Shown: positions 13,179 to 22,248 of the stretch, piece after piece | How positions within the stretch are numbered: the first letter of the stretch is position 1 | Layout of the letters: each line of letters begins with the position of its first letter | Virus record (IMG/VR): IMGVR_UViG_3300009593_003389 | Coordinates: 1 to 24,117 of that record | Source of the DNA: a virus | Length of the DNA: 24,117 nucleotides | Strand: one strand, 5' to 3' | Translations under genes and position numbers: made by a program | Notes under the pieces: model-generated | Database searches by the model: none | Seen by the model: the letters and a program-made list of their open reading frames with translations, nothing else | What the model was told of the DNA's origin: nothing

Positions 13179-13391
13179 ATGAAAGCAACAATCAAAAAAC
13201 AAGTAGTCGAAAAACTTCAAGCATATAACATGAAATATGCGGCCATGGATTGGAACAATAAGTGGTTTTGTTTCGAAAAGAAACCAAATTGTAAAGACGA
13301 TATGTGGGATGTCAAAACGGGGCATGTCATGGAACTGTTTAATCTTCCACTAGAAGGGTTTGATTGGAGAGATTCGTTAGTCCAAAAATAA
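13179..13391 (+). CDS. Small protein of unknown function
   Basis: A 70-residue protein with a basic N-terminal helix (MKATIKKQVVEKLQAYNMKY) and a tryptophan-rich remainder (DWNNKWFCFEK, DDMWDVKTGHV, GFDWRDSLVQK), suggesting a small folded domain. I do not recognise the family. It starts six bases after the methyltransferase stop with only a weak ribosome site, and is followed by a 79-base gap carrying a promoter. An antisense open frame covers the same region but has no gene-like features. Confidence 0.6.
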   Translation: MKATIKKQVVEKLQAYNMKYAAMDWNNKWFCFEKKPNCKDDMWDVKTGHVMELFNLPLEGFDWRDSLVQK

Positions 13392-13409
13392 CCAAAATAA
13401 AACTTGACA
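13390..13409 (+). repeat. 20-bp promoter box, copy 1
   Basis: The 20 bases aaccaaaataaaacttgaca are identical to 16433-16452. Each copy ends in the -35 hexamer of the promoter of one half of the CobT-like/CobS-like pair. The A-rich upstream half looks like an UP element. Confidence 0.85.
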
Positions 13410-13432
13410 TGTTTTTTCATATGAAGTACCAT
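13404..13432 (+). promoter_or_regulatory. Promoter for the CobT-like gene
   Basis: TTGACA at 13404-13409 and TACCAT at 13427-13432 with a 17-base spacer, preceded by the A-rich repeat. Transcription would begin near 13440, which argues against the ATG at 13441 and for the start at 13471. Confidence 0.65.
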
Positions 13433-13470
13433 AGTAGTGAATGGTTAATAAACATAGAGAGAGATTTCAT

Positions 13471-15801
13471 ATGAAAGAACTTCAGTCTACAAAATCCTTA
13501 CTAGCAAAACTTCTTGCTTCAGAGGATATCCGTGTAGAACACGGAAACTTTCAGACTGCATCATTTGATGTAAAAAATCGGGTCATTCATCTACCTATTT
13601 TTAAGTATATGAGTCGTCCGATTTATGATTTAATGGTACTACATGAAGTGGGTCATGCACTATGGACACCCCTTAAAGGATTACATTCTGAAAAAGGTGA
13701 TCTTGGTCCTGGATTCAAGTCTTATCTTAATGTAGTTGAAGATTCTAGAATTGAGAAAAAGATAAAAAGAAAGTATCCAGGTGGTGCAAAACCAATGATT
13801 GAAGGATACAGACAACTTGTATCAGAAGATTTTTTTGGTACAAAAGGTATGAATTTAGATGATTTGAATTTGATCGATAGAATCAACTTACATTATAAGA
13901 TGGGTGCTTCAACAGGAATCACTTTTGATGATGTTGAAAGAGGTTTTATTGATGAAATGGATAAAGCAGAAACTTTTGATGAAGTTTTTGATATTACTAC
14001 TCGCCTTTACGAATATTCCAAAGAAAATGAAAGTGAAACAGATTTTCAAGACCTTTCAATGATGGATGCATCTAGTTTTTCTGATGATGACGAAGATGAT
14101 ACTGAAACTGAAATGTTTGGAGATTCTCCTCTTGATTATATGGAAGAGGAAGAATCTGAAGAAAGAAAAGATGCTTCTAAAGGTATGCAAGGTGATTCAA
14201 AACAGGAAGAATCAGGAGAATCAGAAGAAGACTCTCAAGGAGATTCTGTAGAGGGAGAGGGGGATCAGCAAAGTCAAGCCAATCCAAATAAGGATATGGA
14301 AGATCAAATGTCATCCCAGAACAATATTTCTCCTGGTCAAGAAGGTGGAGTTTCTAATGATGAAAGATTCGAACCTAAATCTCATACTGATGAAGCATGG
14401 CAGAGAACTCAAGAAGATTTGAATGAGACCTCTGATGCAGTATATGAATATGTTACTATTCCTAAGCCACATGATTTGAAAGAAATGGTCATTACTCATA
14501 AGGAATTATATAAAATGATTAATGATTGGTATACGGAAAAGACTAATCGTTATTATGATGATGAAACTCTTGCAAGCAAATTTGATGCCGCTAACAGGAA
14601 AGTTAAAGAATTCAAATCAAAAAATGTAAAAACTGTTGATTTTTTGGTTAAAGAATTTGAAATGAAGAAACGGGCTGATGAGTATAAGAGAACCGCAAGT
14701 GCTAATACTGGATTGCTTGATATGTCTTCAATTCATGAATACAAATATAGTGATAATCTTTTCAAAAAAGTAGCAACTGTGGCTACTGGAAAGAATCATG
14801 GATTAACAATGTTTATTGATTGGTCTGGTTCAATGTCAGGAAATTTGACTGGAACAATTGATCAACTTTTGTGTCTTGTGATGTTTTGTAAAAAAGTTAA
14901 TATTCCTTTTGAAGTTTATGCTTTTACTGATAGAGATCCTAGAAGAAATGATGAGCCAATGTCAAAATATAGTGGCGTGTTTGAGAAAAAAGAAGGAAAC
15001 TTAATCTGTAATAGTTCATTACATTTGATGAATTTGTTTAGTAGTTCCATGACAACTTTGGAAACTAACAAAGCAATGATGCATATGATAATGATTAAAG
15101 AAAGATATGATTGGAATAATTATTATTACAGTTCTAGATGGAATCTTCCACATTTTCTTGATCTTGGAGGAACACCTCTTGATGCTACAATTATTGCTTC
15201 ACTTGAATTGATTCCTGAGTTTCAAAAGAAAAATCGTGTACAAATTGTAAATGCAATTTTTCTTACTGATGGAGAATCTCATACCAGTTCAGAACATTGG
15301 ATGCCTAATATAGATGGACATTTGACGCCAAAGTATTTTAATTCTGGTGGAAGACATAAACTCTTTTATGTTGATCCTGTGACTAAGAAATCTTATTCTT
15401 GTCAAAAACGAAGACATGGTTCAACACCTGTTTTCTATCAGATATTAAAGGATCGTTTAGGAGTTAATGTCTTGGGTTTTTATTTGATTGGAAAGAAATT
15501 TAAATCAAAGAGTTTTGACATTGCTATCGATACCGATTCAAAAGATAAACACGGATTTACAAATTCTGATGATATCATGAGAACTTGGAGAAAAGAAAAA
15601 TCTTTTGTAGCCGCTAATTATCTTGGTTATGATAGACTGTACTACATTAAAGATGGTCAAGATTTAAATACTGATGATGGAGAATTTGTTGTAAAAGAGG
15701 ATGCTTCAAAAAGTCAAATAACAAGAGCATTTAAATCATTCAATAAGAAGAAACTGTCAAGCAGAATTGTTTTGAAAAGTTTTGCTGAAATGGTTTCATG
15801 A
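13471..15801 (+). CDS. Metallopeptidase-like / VWA-domain protein (CobT-like)
   Basis: A 776-residue two-part protein. The N-terminal part has LHEVGHALW near residue 58, an HExxH zinc motif, followed by NVVEDSRIEKKIKRKYPG, which offers further acidic ligands. A very acidic, low-complexity linker lies at about 190-310. The C-terminal part is a von Willebrand A domain: MIDAS FIDWSGSMSG near 447, the threonine loop GGTPLDAT near 566 and FLTDGE near 597. The layout resembles CobT and other VWA partners of MoxR-type AAA+ ATPases, and a CobS-like ATPase lies two genes on. The start at 13471 is preferred over 13441 because of the promoter position and GAGAGAG upstream. Cobalt insertion is unlikely; a MoxR/VWA remodelling or protein-cleaving role is inferred. 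Confidence 0.78.
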   Translation: MKELQSTKSLLAKLLASEDIRVEHGNFQTASFDVKNRVIHLPIFKYMSRPIYDLMVLHEVGHALWTPLKGLHSEKGDLGPGFKSYLNVVEDSRIEKKIKRKYPGGAKPMIEGYRQLVSEDFFGTKGMNLDDLNLIDRINLHYKMGASTGITFDDVERGFIDEMDKAETFDEVFDITTRLYEYSKENESETDFQDLSMMDASSFSDDDEDDTETEMFGDSPLDYMEEEESEERKDASKGMQGDSKQEESGESEEDSQGDSVEGEGDQQSQANPNKDMEDQMSSQNNISPGQEGGVSNDERFEPKSHTDEAWQRTQEDLNETSDAVYEYVTIPKPHDLKEMVITHKELYKMINDWYTEKTNRYYDDETLASKFDAANRKVKEFKSKNVKTVDFLVKEFEMKKRADEYKRTASANTGLLDMSSIHEYKYSDNLFKKVATVATGKNHGLTMFIDWSGSMSGNLTGTIDQLLCLVMFCKKVNIPFEVYAFTDRDPRRNDEPMSKYSGVFEKKEGNLICNSSLHLMNLFSSSMTTLETNKAMMHMIMIKERYDWNNYYYSSRWNLPHFLDLGGTPLDATIIASLELIPEFQKKNRVQIVNAIFLTDGESHTSSEHWMPNIDGHLTPKYFNSGGRHKLFYVDPVTKKSYSCQKRRHGSTPVFYQILKDRLGVNVLGFYLIGKKFKSKSFDIAIDTDSKDKHGFTNSDDIMRTWRKEKSFVAANYLGYDRLYYIKDGQDLNTDDGEFVVKEDASKSQITRAFKSFNKKKLSSRIVLKSFAEMVS

Positions 15802-16166
15802 GATCACCCGTCAAACGTAATCCTGATTGGAATGCAATTGGACGGGATGATCTTGATGATTATAGAAACCGTCAAATAGAATCGGTTCATTATCATGCTG
15901 GAAATCAATTAGACAATTTAAAAGAACATGCTAAAATACTTGTCAAACAAGCGGAGGATATTCTGAATAGAGTAGCAATAGCAGAAAAAGTTCTTAGTGC
16001 TAATTTTGCATTTAAACCCGTACTAAATAATCCCTATTTCCTATACAGAAAAGGTGATGATTACATTTTGACTTTGATTTCTCCAGAAGAATGGAAATCA
16101 CCTTATGATGAATTTGTTGCAGTTGTTAAGCAATTGGGAGATGGGACTTGGGAGGAAATAAAATGA
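15798..16166 (+). CDS. DUF2452 family protein
   Basis: A 122-residue protein. The N-terminus SPVKRNPDWNAIGRDD is followed by a helix rich in charged residues, then FAFKPVLNNPYFLYRKGDDY and LTLISPEEWKSPYDEFVAVV and DGTWEEI. The 'F-P-x-x-x-Y-x-LY-K...LS-IsPeEW' pattern is what I recall for DUF2452, found in bacteria and in cyanophages without an assigned function. It overlaps the CobT-like gene by four bases (ATGA) and the next gene by four, so it is cotranscribed and may belong to the same AAA+/VWA module. Confidence 0.65.
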   Translation: MRSPVKRNPDWNAIGRDDLDDYRNRQIESVHYHAGNQLDNLKEHAKILVKQAEDILNRVAIAEKVLSANFAFKPVLNNPYFLYRKGDDYILTLISPEEWKSPYDEFVAVVKQLGDGTWEEIK

Positions 16167-16450
16167 AATATAATGAAAAAGAAATATTGAAACATCTTGA
16201 AGAATATATTGAAAATACGTATTCACAACATTATGTGAATGGTGGATTTCAAATTCAAGATTTGTTTGAACAGATAGATATTGCAGAGGAATTTTGTAGA
16301 GGAGCGGCTATCAAATATTTAATACGTTTTGGTAAAAAAAGCGGAAAAAATAATCTTGATTTATTAAAATGTATGCATTATATTGTCTTAATGTATCATT
16401 ATTGTGGATTTGATAAAGAATTATTGGTAGAAAACCAAAATAAAACTTGA
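16163..16450 (+). CDS. DUF3310-like small protein
   Basis: A 95-residue protein with YVNGGFQIQDLFEQ, then EFCRGAAIKYLIRFGKKSGK and NNLDLLKCMHYIVLMYHY. The 'Q-x-x-D...FC-x-G-x-AiKYl-R-x-gkK...DL-K-x-hY' pattern is that of DUF3310, common in phages and sometimes called nucleotide-kinase-like, with no firm function. I start at the ATG at 16163, which overlaps the previous stop as ATGA and has GGGAGG seven bases upstream; a TTG at 16148 also exists. The last codons (NQNKT and TGA) are the 20-bp promoter repeat of the next gene read as coding sequence. Confidence 0.7.
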   Translation: MKYNEKEILKHLEEYIENTYSQHYVNGGFQIQDLFEQIDIAEEFCRGAAIKYLIRFGKKSGKNNLDLLKCMHYIVLMYHYCGFDKELLVENQNKT

Positions 16451-16452
16451 CA
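16433..16452 (+). repeat. 20-bp promoter box, copy 2
   Basis: Identical to 13390-13409. Here the repeat also encodes the C-terminus of the DUF3310-like protein, with its TGA stop inside the TTGACA -35 hexamer. Confidence 0.85.
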
Positions 16453-16475
16453 CTATGGAGCAGATTTGAGACAAT
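16447..16475 (+). promoter_or_regulatory. Promoter for the CobS-like gene
   Basis: TTGACA at 16447-16452, 17 bases, GACAAT at 16470-16475 (4 of 6 to consensus), supported by the repeated upstream box. The leader to the ATG at 16524 is about 42 bases and contains GAGG at 16515-16518. Confidence 0.6.
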
Positions 16476-16523: not shown

Positions 16524-17696
16524 ATGAATAAAAACCAAAAAGCACTTATTCAGGCAATTTCCGATGCTGGTTATATAGACGAAATCACTCGTCCGCAATT
16601 GAAAGCAATCGGTTATCAACTGGGTGTAAGTACCGCATGGTTGCAAAAAAACGATACATATAAAATTGCACGTGGAGTTTATAGAATTCCTAACATGGAT
16701 GGCTCTGTGAGTCATGCTATTCCTGCACAACCTACTGTTGAACCTACCATGACAGAAGCAAAAAATAATGTGGTTCAATTTCCTGCTCAAACAGAAAATT
16801 TTATTCCCGATACTGATTCTCATTTTGTTCGTTTCGGACATTGTAAAGATGTAGAATCTATCATAAAATCTAGAATCTATTATCCAACATTTGTAACAGG
16901 TTTGTCTGGAAATGGAAAGACTTTTATGATCGAACAGGTTTGTGCAAGATTGAAACGTGAAATGTTTCGTGTAAACATTACTATTGAAACCGATGAGGAT
17001 GATCTTCTCGGTCATTATCTTTTAAAAGATGGTGAAACAGTTTGGCAAGATGGACCAGTTGTTCAAGCAATGGAACGTGGTGCAATTCTTCTTTTAGATG
17101 AGGTTGACCTTGCATCAAATAAAATTATGTGTTTGCAACCTGTTCTTGAAGGTAAAGGTATTTTTATCAAGAAAGTAAACCGATGGGTTCGCCCTACAAA
17201 AGGTTTTAATGTGTTTGCTACTGCAAATACCAAAGGTAAAGGTTCCGATGATGGTCGTTTTATTGGAACTAACATTCTCAATGAAGCATTTCTTGAAAGA
17301 TTTGCTATCACAATGGAACAAGAGTATCCCACAATTACTGTTGAGAAGAAAATTCTCAATTCAGTTCTTGTAAGTCTTGGGTGTGACAATGAAGAGTTTG
17401 TTGACAAACTTACAAATTGGGCCGACATCATTCGTAAAACTTTTTATGATGGTGGAGTTGATGAGATAATTGCAACTCGTAGATTGGTTCACATTTGTAA
17501 TGCATTCGCCATTTTTGGTGATAAAATGAAAGCAATCCAGATGTGTGTCAATCGTTTCGATGATGAAACCAAAACGGCATTTCTAGATTTGTATAGCAAA
17601 GTTGATGCTGATGTTGTTAACCCAAATGATTCTGCTTCAGAAGGAGGTGAATCAGAAGTGGAATCCAGTGAAACAGATTCAGAACAACCGTTTTAA
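16524..17696 (+). CDS. cobS: CobS/MoxR-like AAA+ ATPase
   Basis: A 390-residue AAA+ ATPase. The first ~75 residues form a small separate domain (QLKAIGYQLGVSTAWLQKND), followed by Walker A GLSGNGKT near 126-133, the MoxR-type EDDLLGHYLL segment, Walker B ILLLDEVD near 188-195, sensor 1 VFATANTKGKG near 229, and an LERF arginine near 260. The C-terminal tail is acidic (SEGGESEVESSETDSE). CobS is a hallmark of marine T4-like phages and is often annotated as a cobaltochelatase subunit. With a VWA protein next to it and no CobN, a general MoxR/VWA chaperone role is as likely. It shares its promoter box with the VWA gene. Confidence 0.85.
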   Translation: MNKNQKALIQAISDAGYIDEITRPQLKAIGYQLGVSTAWLQKNDTYKIARGVYRIPNMDGSVSHAIPAQPTVEPTMTEAKNNVVQFPAQTENFIPDTDSHFVRFGHCKDVESIIKSRIYYPTFVTGLSGNGKTFMIEQVCARLKREMFRVNITIETDEDDLLGHYLLKDGETVWQDGPVVQAMERGAILLLDEVDLASNKIMCLQPVLEGKGIFIKKVNRWVRPTKGFNVFATANTKGKGSDDGRFIGTNILNEAFLERFAITMEQEYPTITVEKKILNSVLVSLGCDNEEFVDKLTNWADIIRKTFYDGGVDEIIATRRLVHICNAFAIFGDKMKAIQMCVNRFDDETKTAFLDLYSKVDADVVNPNDSASEGGESEVESSETDSEQPF

Positions 17697-17769: not shown

Positions 17770-18777
17770 ATGCAAATTGAAGTTAAAGTTGAAGAATTAA
17801 GAAAGAAAAAAATATTTGTTGCAACGCCTATGTATGGTGGTCAATGTGCTGGAATGTATACGAAGGCATGTATTGATCTTGCAACAATGTGTGCTAATTA
17901 TGGAGTTGAATGCAGATTCTTTTTCATATTTAATGAATCCCTTATTACTAGAGCAAGAAATTATCTTGTCGATGAATTTTTGAGGGCAGAAGAGTTTACT
18001 CATCTTATGTTCATTGATTCAGATATTCATTTTGACCCAAGAGATGTTTTATCTCTTGCAGTTTTATGTGATGATGACAAACCTATTATTGGTGGTCCTT
18101 ATGGTAAAAAATGCATTGCTTGGGAGAAAATTGTACAAGCAGTGGATGCTGGTGTTGCTGATAAAGATCCTAATGAACTCCAAAAATTTGTAGGTGATTT
18201 TGTTTTTAATCCTGTACAAGGAACCAAAGAATTAAAAATTAATCAACCTGTAGAAGTATTGGAAATTGGAACTGGTTTTATGATGGCTCAACGGAATGTT
18301 TTTGACAAGTGGAGAGAAGCATATCCACAATTTCATTATAAACCAGATCATAATCGTTCAGAACAATTCAAGGGTGATCGATACATTCATGCATATTTTG
18401 ATACTGTAATTGATAATGAACAGTATATGCCTATGGGTGCATCTAATAAATCTGATCGATATTTATCGGAAGACTATGCGTTTTGTCAGTTAGCAAGACA
18501 TATAGACATTCCTATTCACTTATGTCCTTGGATGAAATTAGGACATATTGGAACATATGTTTTTGATGGTACAATGGCGGATCTTGGAAGAATAGATTCT
18601 TCTAATGGTCTTGCTAAAGCACATATGGATCAATCTCAAAAATTGAGAGAGGCTAGAATAAAAGTTACTGAAGAAGCCGAAGCAGTTAAAGAGATTGAAC
18701 AGGTTGAAAAACATAAAACTACTAGACAAGAGAGAAGGAAGGCGTTAAGAGATAAGAAGAAAAAGAAGAAACATTGA
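17770..18777 (+). CDS. Glycosyltransferase, GT-A fold
   Basis: A 335-residue enzyme. After KKIFVATPMYGGQCAGMYTK comes FFFIFNESLITRARNYLVDE, then HLMFIDSDIHFDPRDV with the metal-binding DSD at about 83-85, and further on GTGFMMAQRNVFD and LSEDYAFCQLAR, which supply the usual acceptor-side acidic residues. This is the pattern of GT2/GT-A nucleotide-sugar transferases common in phages. The C-terminus is a coiled, very basic tail ending KALRDKKKKKKH, which could bind nucleic acid or a membrane; DNA as acceptor is possible but not shown. It follows a terminator, and its stop codon lies in the -35 box of the clamp promoter. Confidence 0.75.
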   Translation: MQIEVKVEELRKKKIFVATPMYGGQCAGMYTKACIDLATMCANYGVECRFFFIFNESLITRARNYLVDEFLRAEEFTHLMFIDSDIHFDPRDVLSLAVLCDDDKPIIGGPYGKKCIAWEKIVQAVDAGVADKDPNELQKFVGDFVFNPVQGTKELKINQPVEVLEIGTGFMMAQRNVFDKWREAYPQFHYKPDHNRSEQFKGDRYIHAYFDTVIDNEQYMPMGASNKSDRYLSEDYAFCQLARHIDIPIHLCPWMKLGHIGTYVFDGTMADLGRIDSSNGLAKAHMDQSQKLREARIKVTEEAEAVKEIEQVEKHKTTRQERRKALRDKKKKKKH

Positions 18778-19515: not shown

Positions 19516-20457
19516 ATGTTTGGAGAATCATTTTTATGGGTCGAAAAGTATCGACCTAAAACAATTGATGAGTGTATTTTACCTGATCGAATAAAAACAA
19601 TTTTTAATCAGATATCATCGGAAGGTCGCATTCCTAACATGATACTTTCAGGCGGTCCTGGTATGGGTAAAACGACCGTGGCGAAAGCACTTTGTAATGA
19701 AGTGGGTTGTGACTTTCTGATGATTAATGGTTCTGAAGAATCTGGTATTGATGTTTTACGAACTAAAATACGTGGATATGCTTCAACTGTTAGTTTTGAT
19801 GGTGGAAGAAAAGTTGTTATATTAGACGAAGCAGGTTATCTAAATCCTCAGTCCACACAACCTGCCTTAAGATCCTTCATAGAAGAATTTGAAAAACATT
19901 GTTCATTTATTATGACATGTAACTATGTTAATCGAATTATCGAACCTTTACATTCTAGGTGTCAGGTAATTGATTTCAAGATAAATAAAGAAGAGAAGGT
20001 TGATGTTGGATCGAATTTCGGAAAAAGACTTTATACTATCCTAGATCAAGAGCAAGTTGATTATGATAAGAAAGTAGTAGCAGAAGTGTTAATGAAACAC
20101 TTTCCCGATTATCGCCGAGTATTAAACGAACTCCAAAAATATTCTAAATATGAACGCATAGATTCAGGAATATTGTCTCAAGTTTCTGACATAAATCTTA
20201 CTGAACTTATGAAGCATATGAAGGATAAAAAATTTAACGAGGTTAGAAAGTGGGTTGTCAATAATTTGGATAATGATCCACAAAGAGTTTACAGGAAGAT
20301 TTATGATGTTGCATCTGATTTTATTCACACAACTTCAGTACCTCAATTAGTATTAATTTTGGCAGACTATCAATATAAATCTGCATTTGCGGCAGATCAT
20401 GAACTCAATTTAGTCGCATGTTTAGTAGAAGTAATGGTAGAATGTCAATTTAAGTAA
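19516..20457 (+). CDS. 44: Clamp loader large subunit gp44
   Basis: A 313-residue AAA+ clamp loader ATPase. Walker A GGPGMGKTTVAKAL near residue 46, Walker B VVILDEAGYL near 100, sensor 1 MTCNYVNRI near 134, and the SRC arginine-finger motif in LHSRCQVI near 147 are all present, followed by the helical collar domain. Length agrees with T4 gp44 (319). It starts two bases after the gene 45 stop. In T4 four copies of gp44 assemble with one gp62; here gene 62 is separated from gene 44 by a putative lipoprotein gene. Confidence 0.96.
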   Translation: MFGESFLWVEKYRPKTIDECILPDRIKTIFNQISSEGRIPNMILSGGPGMGKTTVAKALCNEVGCDFLMINGSEESGIDVLRTKIRGYASTVSFDGGRKVVILDEAGYLNPQSTQPALRSFIEEFEKHCSFIMTCNYVNRIIEPLHSRCQVIDFKINKEEKVDVGSNFGKRLYTILDQEQVDYDKKVVAEVLMKHFPDYRRVLNELQKYSKYERIDSGILSQVSDINLTELMKHMKDKKFNEVRKWVVNNLDNDPQRVYRKIYDVASDFIHTTSVPQLVLILADYQYKSAFAADHELNLVACLVEVMVECQFK

Positions 20458-21706: not shown

Positions 21707-22248
21707 TGAAAGACTATTGGGATACTGTGGATACTGTAAAATTAACACACAAATTGGGTGTATTTTGCTTACATGATGATGTTGAAATACCCTCTTTAGC
21801 AACTGAAAAATCGGCATGTTTTGATATTAAAGCATATCTTAAAAAAGATTCTACAGTTTTAGCATATAATCAATACAATCGTAAAAAAGAACTTGTTTTA
21901 AAAACTAATTCTCTTGAAATGCTTCCAGGGTGGAGATATCTTATTCCCTCAGGAATGATTTTCGATATTCCTTCGGGTTTTTATGTAAAAGTACATCCAA
22001 GGTCTGGAAACGCATTGAAAAAGGGATTAATTACTGCAAACAATGTAGGAATCGTTGATGAGGATTATGTAGAAGAATGTAATTGTATTATGAGAACCGT
22101 TTCTCATGATCCTATCACAATTGAACATGGTGATCGAATAGCACAAGCAGAATTACGTAAGACAGAAAGTTTTGAAATTGGTCGTATTGACAATAGACCA
22201 GAACAAAAAACAGATAGAGATGGTGGATTTGGATCCACTGGAACTTGA
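21706..22248 (+). CDS. dut: dUTPase
   Basis: A 180-residue trimeric-type dUTP pyrophosphatase, keeping uracil out of DNA and supplying dUMP for thymidylate. The five motifs are in order: SACFDIKA (1), VHPRSGNALKKGL (2), NNVGIVDEDYVEE (3), GDRIAQAEL (4) and RDGGFGSTGT (5). The catalytic Asp and the Tyr stack of motif 3 are present. It is longer than the usual ~150 residues because of a loop between motifs 1 and 2 (around 46-75). It starts in a TAATG overlap with regA and ends in a TGA embedded in the -35 hexamer of the hsp20 promoter. Confidence 0.95.
   Translation: MKDYWDTVDTVKLTHKLGVFCLHDDVEIPSLATEKSACFDIKAYLKKDSTVLAYNQYNRKKELVLKTNSLEMLPGWRYLIPSGMIFDIPSGFYVKVHPRSGNALKKGLITANNVGIVDEDYVEECNCIMRTVSHDPITIEHGDRIAQAELRKTESFEIGRIDNRPEQKTDRDGGFGSTGT

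Follow-up and report, generated by a model that had tools for sequence, protein, structure and literature searches.

The cobT and cobS genes and their predicted promoters

We analyzed a stretch of 24,117 bases (from here on, the window) that belongs to a marine T4-like phage, as profile matches to gp55 (phrog_234), a CobT-like protein (phrog_459), a CobS-like AAA_5 ATPase (phrog_249) and Hsp20 indicate; further genes, which we take from their translations and gene order to be UvsW, gp46/47, gp45/44/62 and gp43, lie in the same window. On the plus strand, the gene for the CobT-like protein (13471..15801; phrog_459 'peptidase', E=7.5e-195) and that for the CobS-like ATPase (16524..17696; phrog_249 'porphyrin biosynthesis', E=3.5e-121) are separated by two genes. 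The first encodes a DUF2452 protein (PF10504; 15798..16166), also present in the related loci L004, L006 and L007 and with no match in L009, and the second a DUF3310 protein (Pfam PF11753, E=5e-8; 16163..16450). The best cultured match of CobS is in Pelagibacter phage HTVC008M (58%). The functional start of cobT is probably at 13471 and not at 13441, given that alignments with relatives begin at about residue 8-14 and that 13441 would coincide with the transcription start.

The CobT-like protein has no Pfam match. It combines an HEVGH metallopeptidase motif with a VWA/MIDAS motif (DWSGSMS), and together with its AAA_5 partner it looks more like a MoxR/VWA-type pair than like a cobalt chelatase; we noticed no CobN in the window. 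Elsewhere in the window, the neighboring genes 858 and 1457 have a 114-base stretch in common (870-983 and 1472-1585, 73% identity) and look like a tandem gene duplication.

The feature of interest is a 20-mer, AACCAAAATAAAACTTGACA, that is present exactly twice, at 13390-13409 before cobT and at 16433-16452 before cobS, both on the plus strand. A sequence-only reading of this DNA had pointed to an identical 20-bp box at both sites, with the -35 hexamer at its end and a 17-base spacing to the -10, and our search found this exact match. The search covered the 24,117 bases, the full length of this phage's record, and no third copy at up to 3 mismatches was found there, where shuffled sequences lead us to expect 0.01 matches. 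Among the window's exact direct repeats, the box is also the longest. In 300 fourth-order Markov simulations, a repeat of at least 20 bases appears in about 1%, and 18-mer repeats appear in 7% (for a sequence of 31% GC).

Each copy consists of an A-rich upstream tract and a -35 hexamer. In front of cobT, TTGACA (13404..13409) is followed after 17 bases by the -10 TACCAT (13427..13432), which is conserved in L004, L006, L007 and L009; orthologous boxes with TTGACA are found in relatives. In front of cobS, where the box has orthologues in L003, L004 and L006-L009, TTGACA (16447..16452) is followed at the same spacing by GACAAT (16470-16475). Here TGA directly precedes the hexamer and makes it an extended -10 (16467..16475), and the same TGA precedes GATAAT in the cobS promoters of L004, L006 and L007; the sequence-only reading, which had called the -10 weak, was thus too pessimistic for the cobS copy. 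Both promoters match the consensus at 10/12 bases. The elements of a sigma70-type early promoter (TTGACA, a TATAAT-like -10, 16-18 bases between them, a gene downstream) are all in place and conserved in relatives, and many T4-like relatives have a TTGAC[A/T] promoter upstream of both genes. On the best reading, the two boxes are the upstream halves of two predicted sigma70-type promoters for host polymerase, which would be active early.

UP elements have an A/T-rich consensus, and binding of alpha-CTD to them raises promoter activity. The A-tract of the box abuts the -35 as the proximal subsite (the alpha-CTD site) does (AAAATAAAA in the window, AAAAAAAGT in genome G007), although the tracts are imperfect in half of the clade (AAGAATTGT, ATTTTTTGT) and the clade's conserved ACC lies outside the known A/T-rich consensus. 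Located by sequence at about -38 to -46, the place of that subsite, the tract may function as an UP element (for context, see PMC4390567). Early promoters of T4-like phages and cyanophages have been predicted as sigma70 sites (PMC3037559, PMC7029224), and the present pair is like them in having TTGACA, 17 bases and a TATAAT-like hexamer before replication and auxiliary genes. It differs from them in that two particular promoters have an upstream tract in common and drift together.

The box in near relatives

We sought the box over whole contigs of near relatives, that is, those whose CobS is about 80-82% identical. In three of them (G004, 56.7 kb; G005, 76.9 kb; G007, 13.3 kb) it occurs exactly twice each, only before cobT and cobS, while a fourth (G002) has one copy at that stringency, its cobT copy ACCATTTTTTGTC being more diverged. 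The sequence-only reading had proposed comparing relatives for a box restricted to these two genes, and such a restriction is what we see in the near-relative contigs of greatest length (up to 77 kb). The box pair recurs before cobT and cobS in five genomes of the clade.

Within this clade ACC is almost invariant in the box, and in most of the five genomes lineage-specific letters are common to both copies. The window has AACCAAAATAAAAC at both genes, so that the 14 bases upstream of the -35 agree at 14/14 within the genome, as against 7-10 with other genomes' boxes (8-10 where these are cobS boxes). The two copies are CACCAAAAAAAGTC and AACCAAAAAAAGTG in G007 (12/14), AACCAAAAAATGTC and GACCAAGAAATGTC in G004 (12/14), and AACCAAGAATTGTC and AACCAAGAAATGTC in G005 (13/14); G002 is the exception, with a poorly matched pair (8/14). 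Other intergenic early-type promoters agree with the box at no more than 9/14 upstream bases in the window and no more than 8 in the other near relatives. With few lineages, a coupling test limited to the window's own clade is not significant (p=0.08).

The second copy is also coding: the last codons of the DUF3310 gene lie within it and the TGA stop within its -35 hexamer. The sequence-only reading had recognized this (NQNKT and stop), and the tail ...VENQNKT-stop is indeed that of DUF3310. Its further claim, that this copy is kept despite a protein constraint, fails, as the DUF3310 tail is variable and the box is read in different frames or lies in different genes in relatives. In L008 and L009 DUF3310 ends in ...LEETKKSVDIKV-stop, with the box in another frame, and in L004, L006 and L007, which have no DUF3310 match before cobS, it is DUF2452 that ends in the same box at the same stop, as ...QEMS-stop (...DENQEMS-stop in L007). 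In L003 neither DUF2452 nor DUF3310 has a match between cobT and the box. The genes ahead of the cobS box thus vary among near relatives (DUF2452 plus DUF3310, DUF3310, DUF2452, or neither) and the box is kept. Because it stays with cobS while the preceding gene changes, the box would be a natural border of module exchange.

This arrangement recalls the PeSL cassette, an early promoter beside a stem-loop terminator that marks the borders of shuffled gene modules. The likeness would lie in an early promoter at the edge of exchangeable modules, which here may be the varying genes before the kept cobS box. We do not take the boxes for PeSL cassettes, since the window has no terminator-like stem-loop beside 13390 or 16433.

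Genes ending on the TGA of a -35 hexamer are not confined to this site. TGA stops at 16448-16450, 18775-18777 and 22246-22248 of the window end genes inside the next promoter's TTGACA, and over several T4-like contigs the same holds for 22 of the 77 promoters that have the end of a gene close upstream. Such endings are partly mechanical, because TTGACA contains TGA and stops an open frame by itself, and as a selected feature the stop codon inside the -35 is unproven.

Some relatives carry further elements around these promoters. A cobS-leader element of about 100 bases, with a long stem and a branched top, is found at L004:4845-4970, L006:4005-4128 and L007:4840-4985 (folding z of -3.4, -3.75 and -1.7, respectively) and, by sequence, also in L003 and L011; the long stem is common to the L004/L007 version and the L006 version, whose sequences differ. 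The window does not have this element, which matches no Rfam family, and a search of cobS leaders for riboswitch or RNA families gave sub-threshold matches only, none at gathering score. The inverted repeat TGTC-TT-GACA of L004, L006 and L007 was dropped as a shared feature, since the window lacks it. In L013, L015-L019 and L021, the sequence directly before the cobT promoter resembles the 3' end of a tRNA gene (for example, ...TCGCTCCA), after which come an A-tract and the -35.

Within-genome likeness of the two promoters across T4-like phages

Now we consider T4-like genomes more broadly. In a first set of 28 dereplicated genomes with promoters before both genes (six more, in which the automatic picker chose implausible sites, being excluded), the 14 upstream bases of cobT and cobS agree at 8.8 positions within genomes and at 6.2 when genomes are mismatched (permutation p<0.0001). 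Spacer, -10 and leader segments likewise agree beyond expectation, the first 12 spacer bases with p<0.0001. A second set of 21 genomes, found via cobT and cleared of contigs recognized from the first set though some are still close kin of it, gives 6.1 within genomes versus 4.6 for the upstream bases (p=0.0005) and 6.05 versus 3.45 for the first 12 spacer bases (p<0.0001).

The dereplicated union of the two sets holds 41 genomes. Here cobT and cobS promoters that belong to one genome agree at 7.4 of 14 upstream bases, whereas orthologous promoters agree across genomes at 5.6 (cobT with cobT) and 5.3 (cobS with cobS), a comparison that deals with relatedness through dereplication and permutation, not through a tree model, and in which some kinship remains. 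Likeness within a genome that exceeds the likeness of orthologues between genomes is what defines a concertedly evolving pair of repeats, and the cobT-cobS pair shows this pattern. The first 12 spacer bases of the union match at 5.3 positions within genomes versus 3.6. At the far end of the range, the two promoters of L053 and of L054 are almost identical over a stretch that begins 8 bases upstream of the -35 and ends 8 bases downstream of the -10. Genome G023, which contains L054, has promoters at 19812, 22170 and 28981 of the reverse complement; those of cobT and cobS are almost identical over about 40 bases and the third, similar one is close to the end of the contig, a pattern suggestive of recent promoter duplication.

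Copying, selection and other explanations

The sequence-only reading had ascribed the exact match to selection for matched expression of interacting proteins. That cause is viable, and so is a second one, ectopic copying between promoters. Selection without any copying would mean that the box is read by a shared regulator or by the host polymerase's alpha subunit, with the partner proteins made in matched amounts as a result. Several observations fit: the box is sharp-edged in the window and its ACC varies hardly at all in the clade, near relatives have the pair only at the two genes, and in the window the match ends at the -35, with agreement at only 4 of the first 12 spacer bases. Given the unmatched spacer, copying in the window would have to be long past or confined to a short tract, and the sharp edges favor selection or an old copy. 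Across the broader set, however, within-genome matching extends to the first 12 spacer bases, for which no recognition is known, and in the window the -10s and leaders of the two promoters differ, so that expression need not match. We hold selection alone to be rather unlikely.

Alternatively, a lineage's host polymerase could set a flavor for all of its early promoters, which cobT and cobS would simply follow. Consistent with this, other early promoters of G023 have the GAAAAAAC-TTGACA style, and pairs of other early promoters in the 41-genome union are slightly closer within genomes than across them (5.6 versus 4.8 of 14). In the same union, cobT and cobS promoters of one genome agree at 7.6/14 as against 5.4/14 for pairs of either with another early promoter (p=0.0003), and the cobT-cobS pair lies above every such pair in 22/33 genomes; the ceiling of 9/14 for other promoters in the window points the same way. 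A genome-wide consensus is in our judgment improbable as the explanation. That two -35 regions converged by chance on the same 20 bases can for practical purposes be dismissed: the sequence is A-rich, both sites must carry TTGACA and the simulations do yield 18-mers, but the pair recurs before the same two genes in five genomes, in most of which the copies have lineage-specific letters in common.

The box is not a signal reserved for these genes in all phages. A ACCAAAATAAnCC-TTGACA box of the same style precedes other genes in G031, a remote phage without detected cobT or cobS, and we reject an operator that would be specific to cob genes in every phage. Where remote phages have box-like promoters, unrelated genes follow, and the sequence in itself is no cob signal. 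IMG/VR matches to the exact 20-mer likewise fall in loci without a cobT or cobS match.

The reading that we favor, with some confidence, is that these are early promoters, each with an UP-like A-tract, and that copying together with selection makes them evolve in concert. Host RNA polymerase would probably read both promoters early in infection, starting the cobT operon (cobT, DUF2452, DUF3310) and cobS separately. The twin promoters would then evolve in concert, so that both copies bear the same variant within a lineage. The likeliest cause would be that intragenomic recombination, to which these phages are prone, repeatedly copies one promoter onto the other, and selection may help to hold the copies alike by favoring similar early expression in the VWA/AAA+ partners. 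Copying is favored as a contributor in the broader set because the spacer is matched within genomes though of little sequence constraint. A stronger version can be put forward only tentatively, and we would not quite give it even chances: T4-like phages would repeatedly copy an early promoter onto that of a partner gene about 3 kb away by ectopic recombination, and this concerted evolution would keep a VWA/AAA+ system under identical upstream control while neighboring genes are swapped at the box.

Concerted evolution is well known for genes and for rRNA operons. We know of no description of it for a single pair of promoters in phages, and a search limited to open-licence papers found no description of promoter pairing of this kind. 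The pairing bears on the frequent carriage of cobT and cobS, as a promoter-led pair, in marine T4-like phages, though the CobN partner is not seen here. If it is real, functionally coupled phage genes could be found from their promoters alone.
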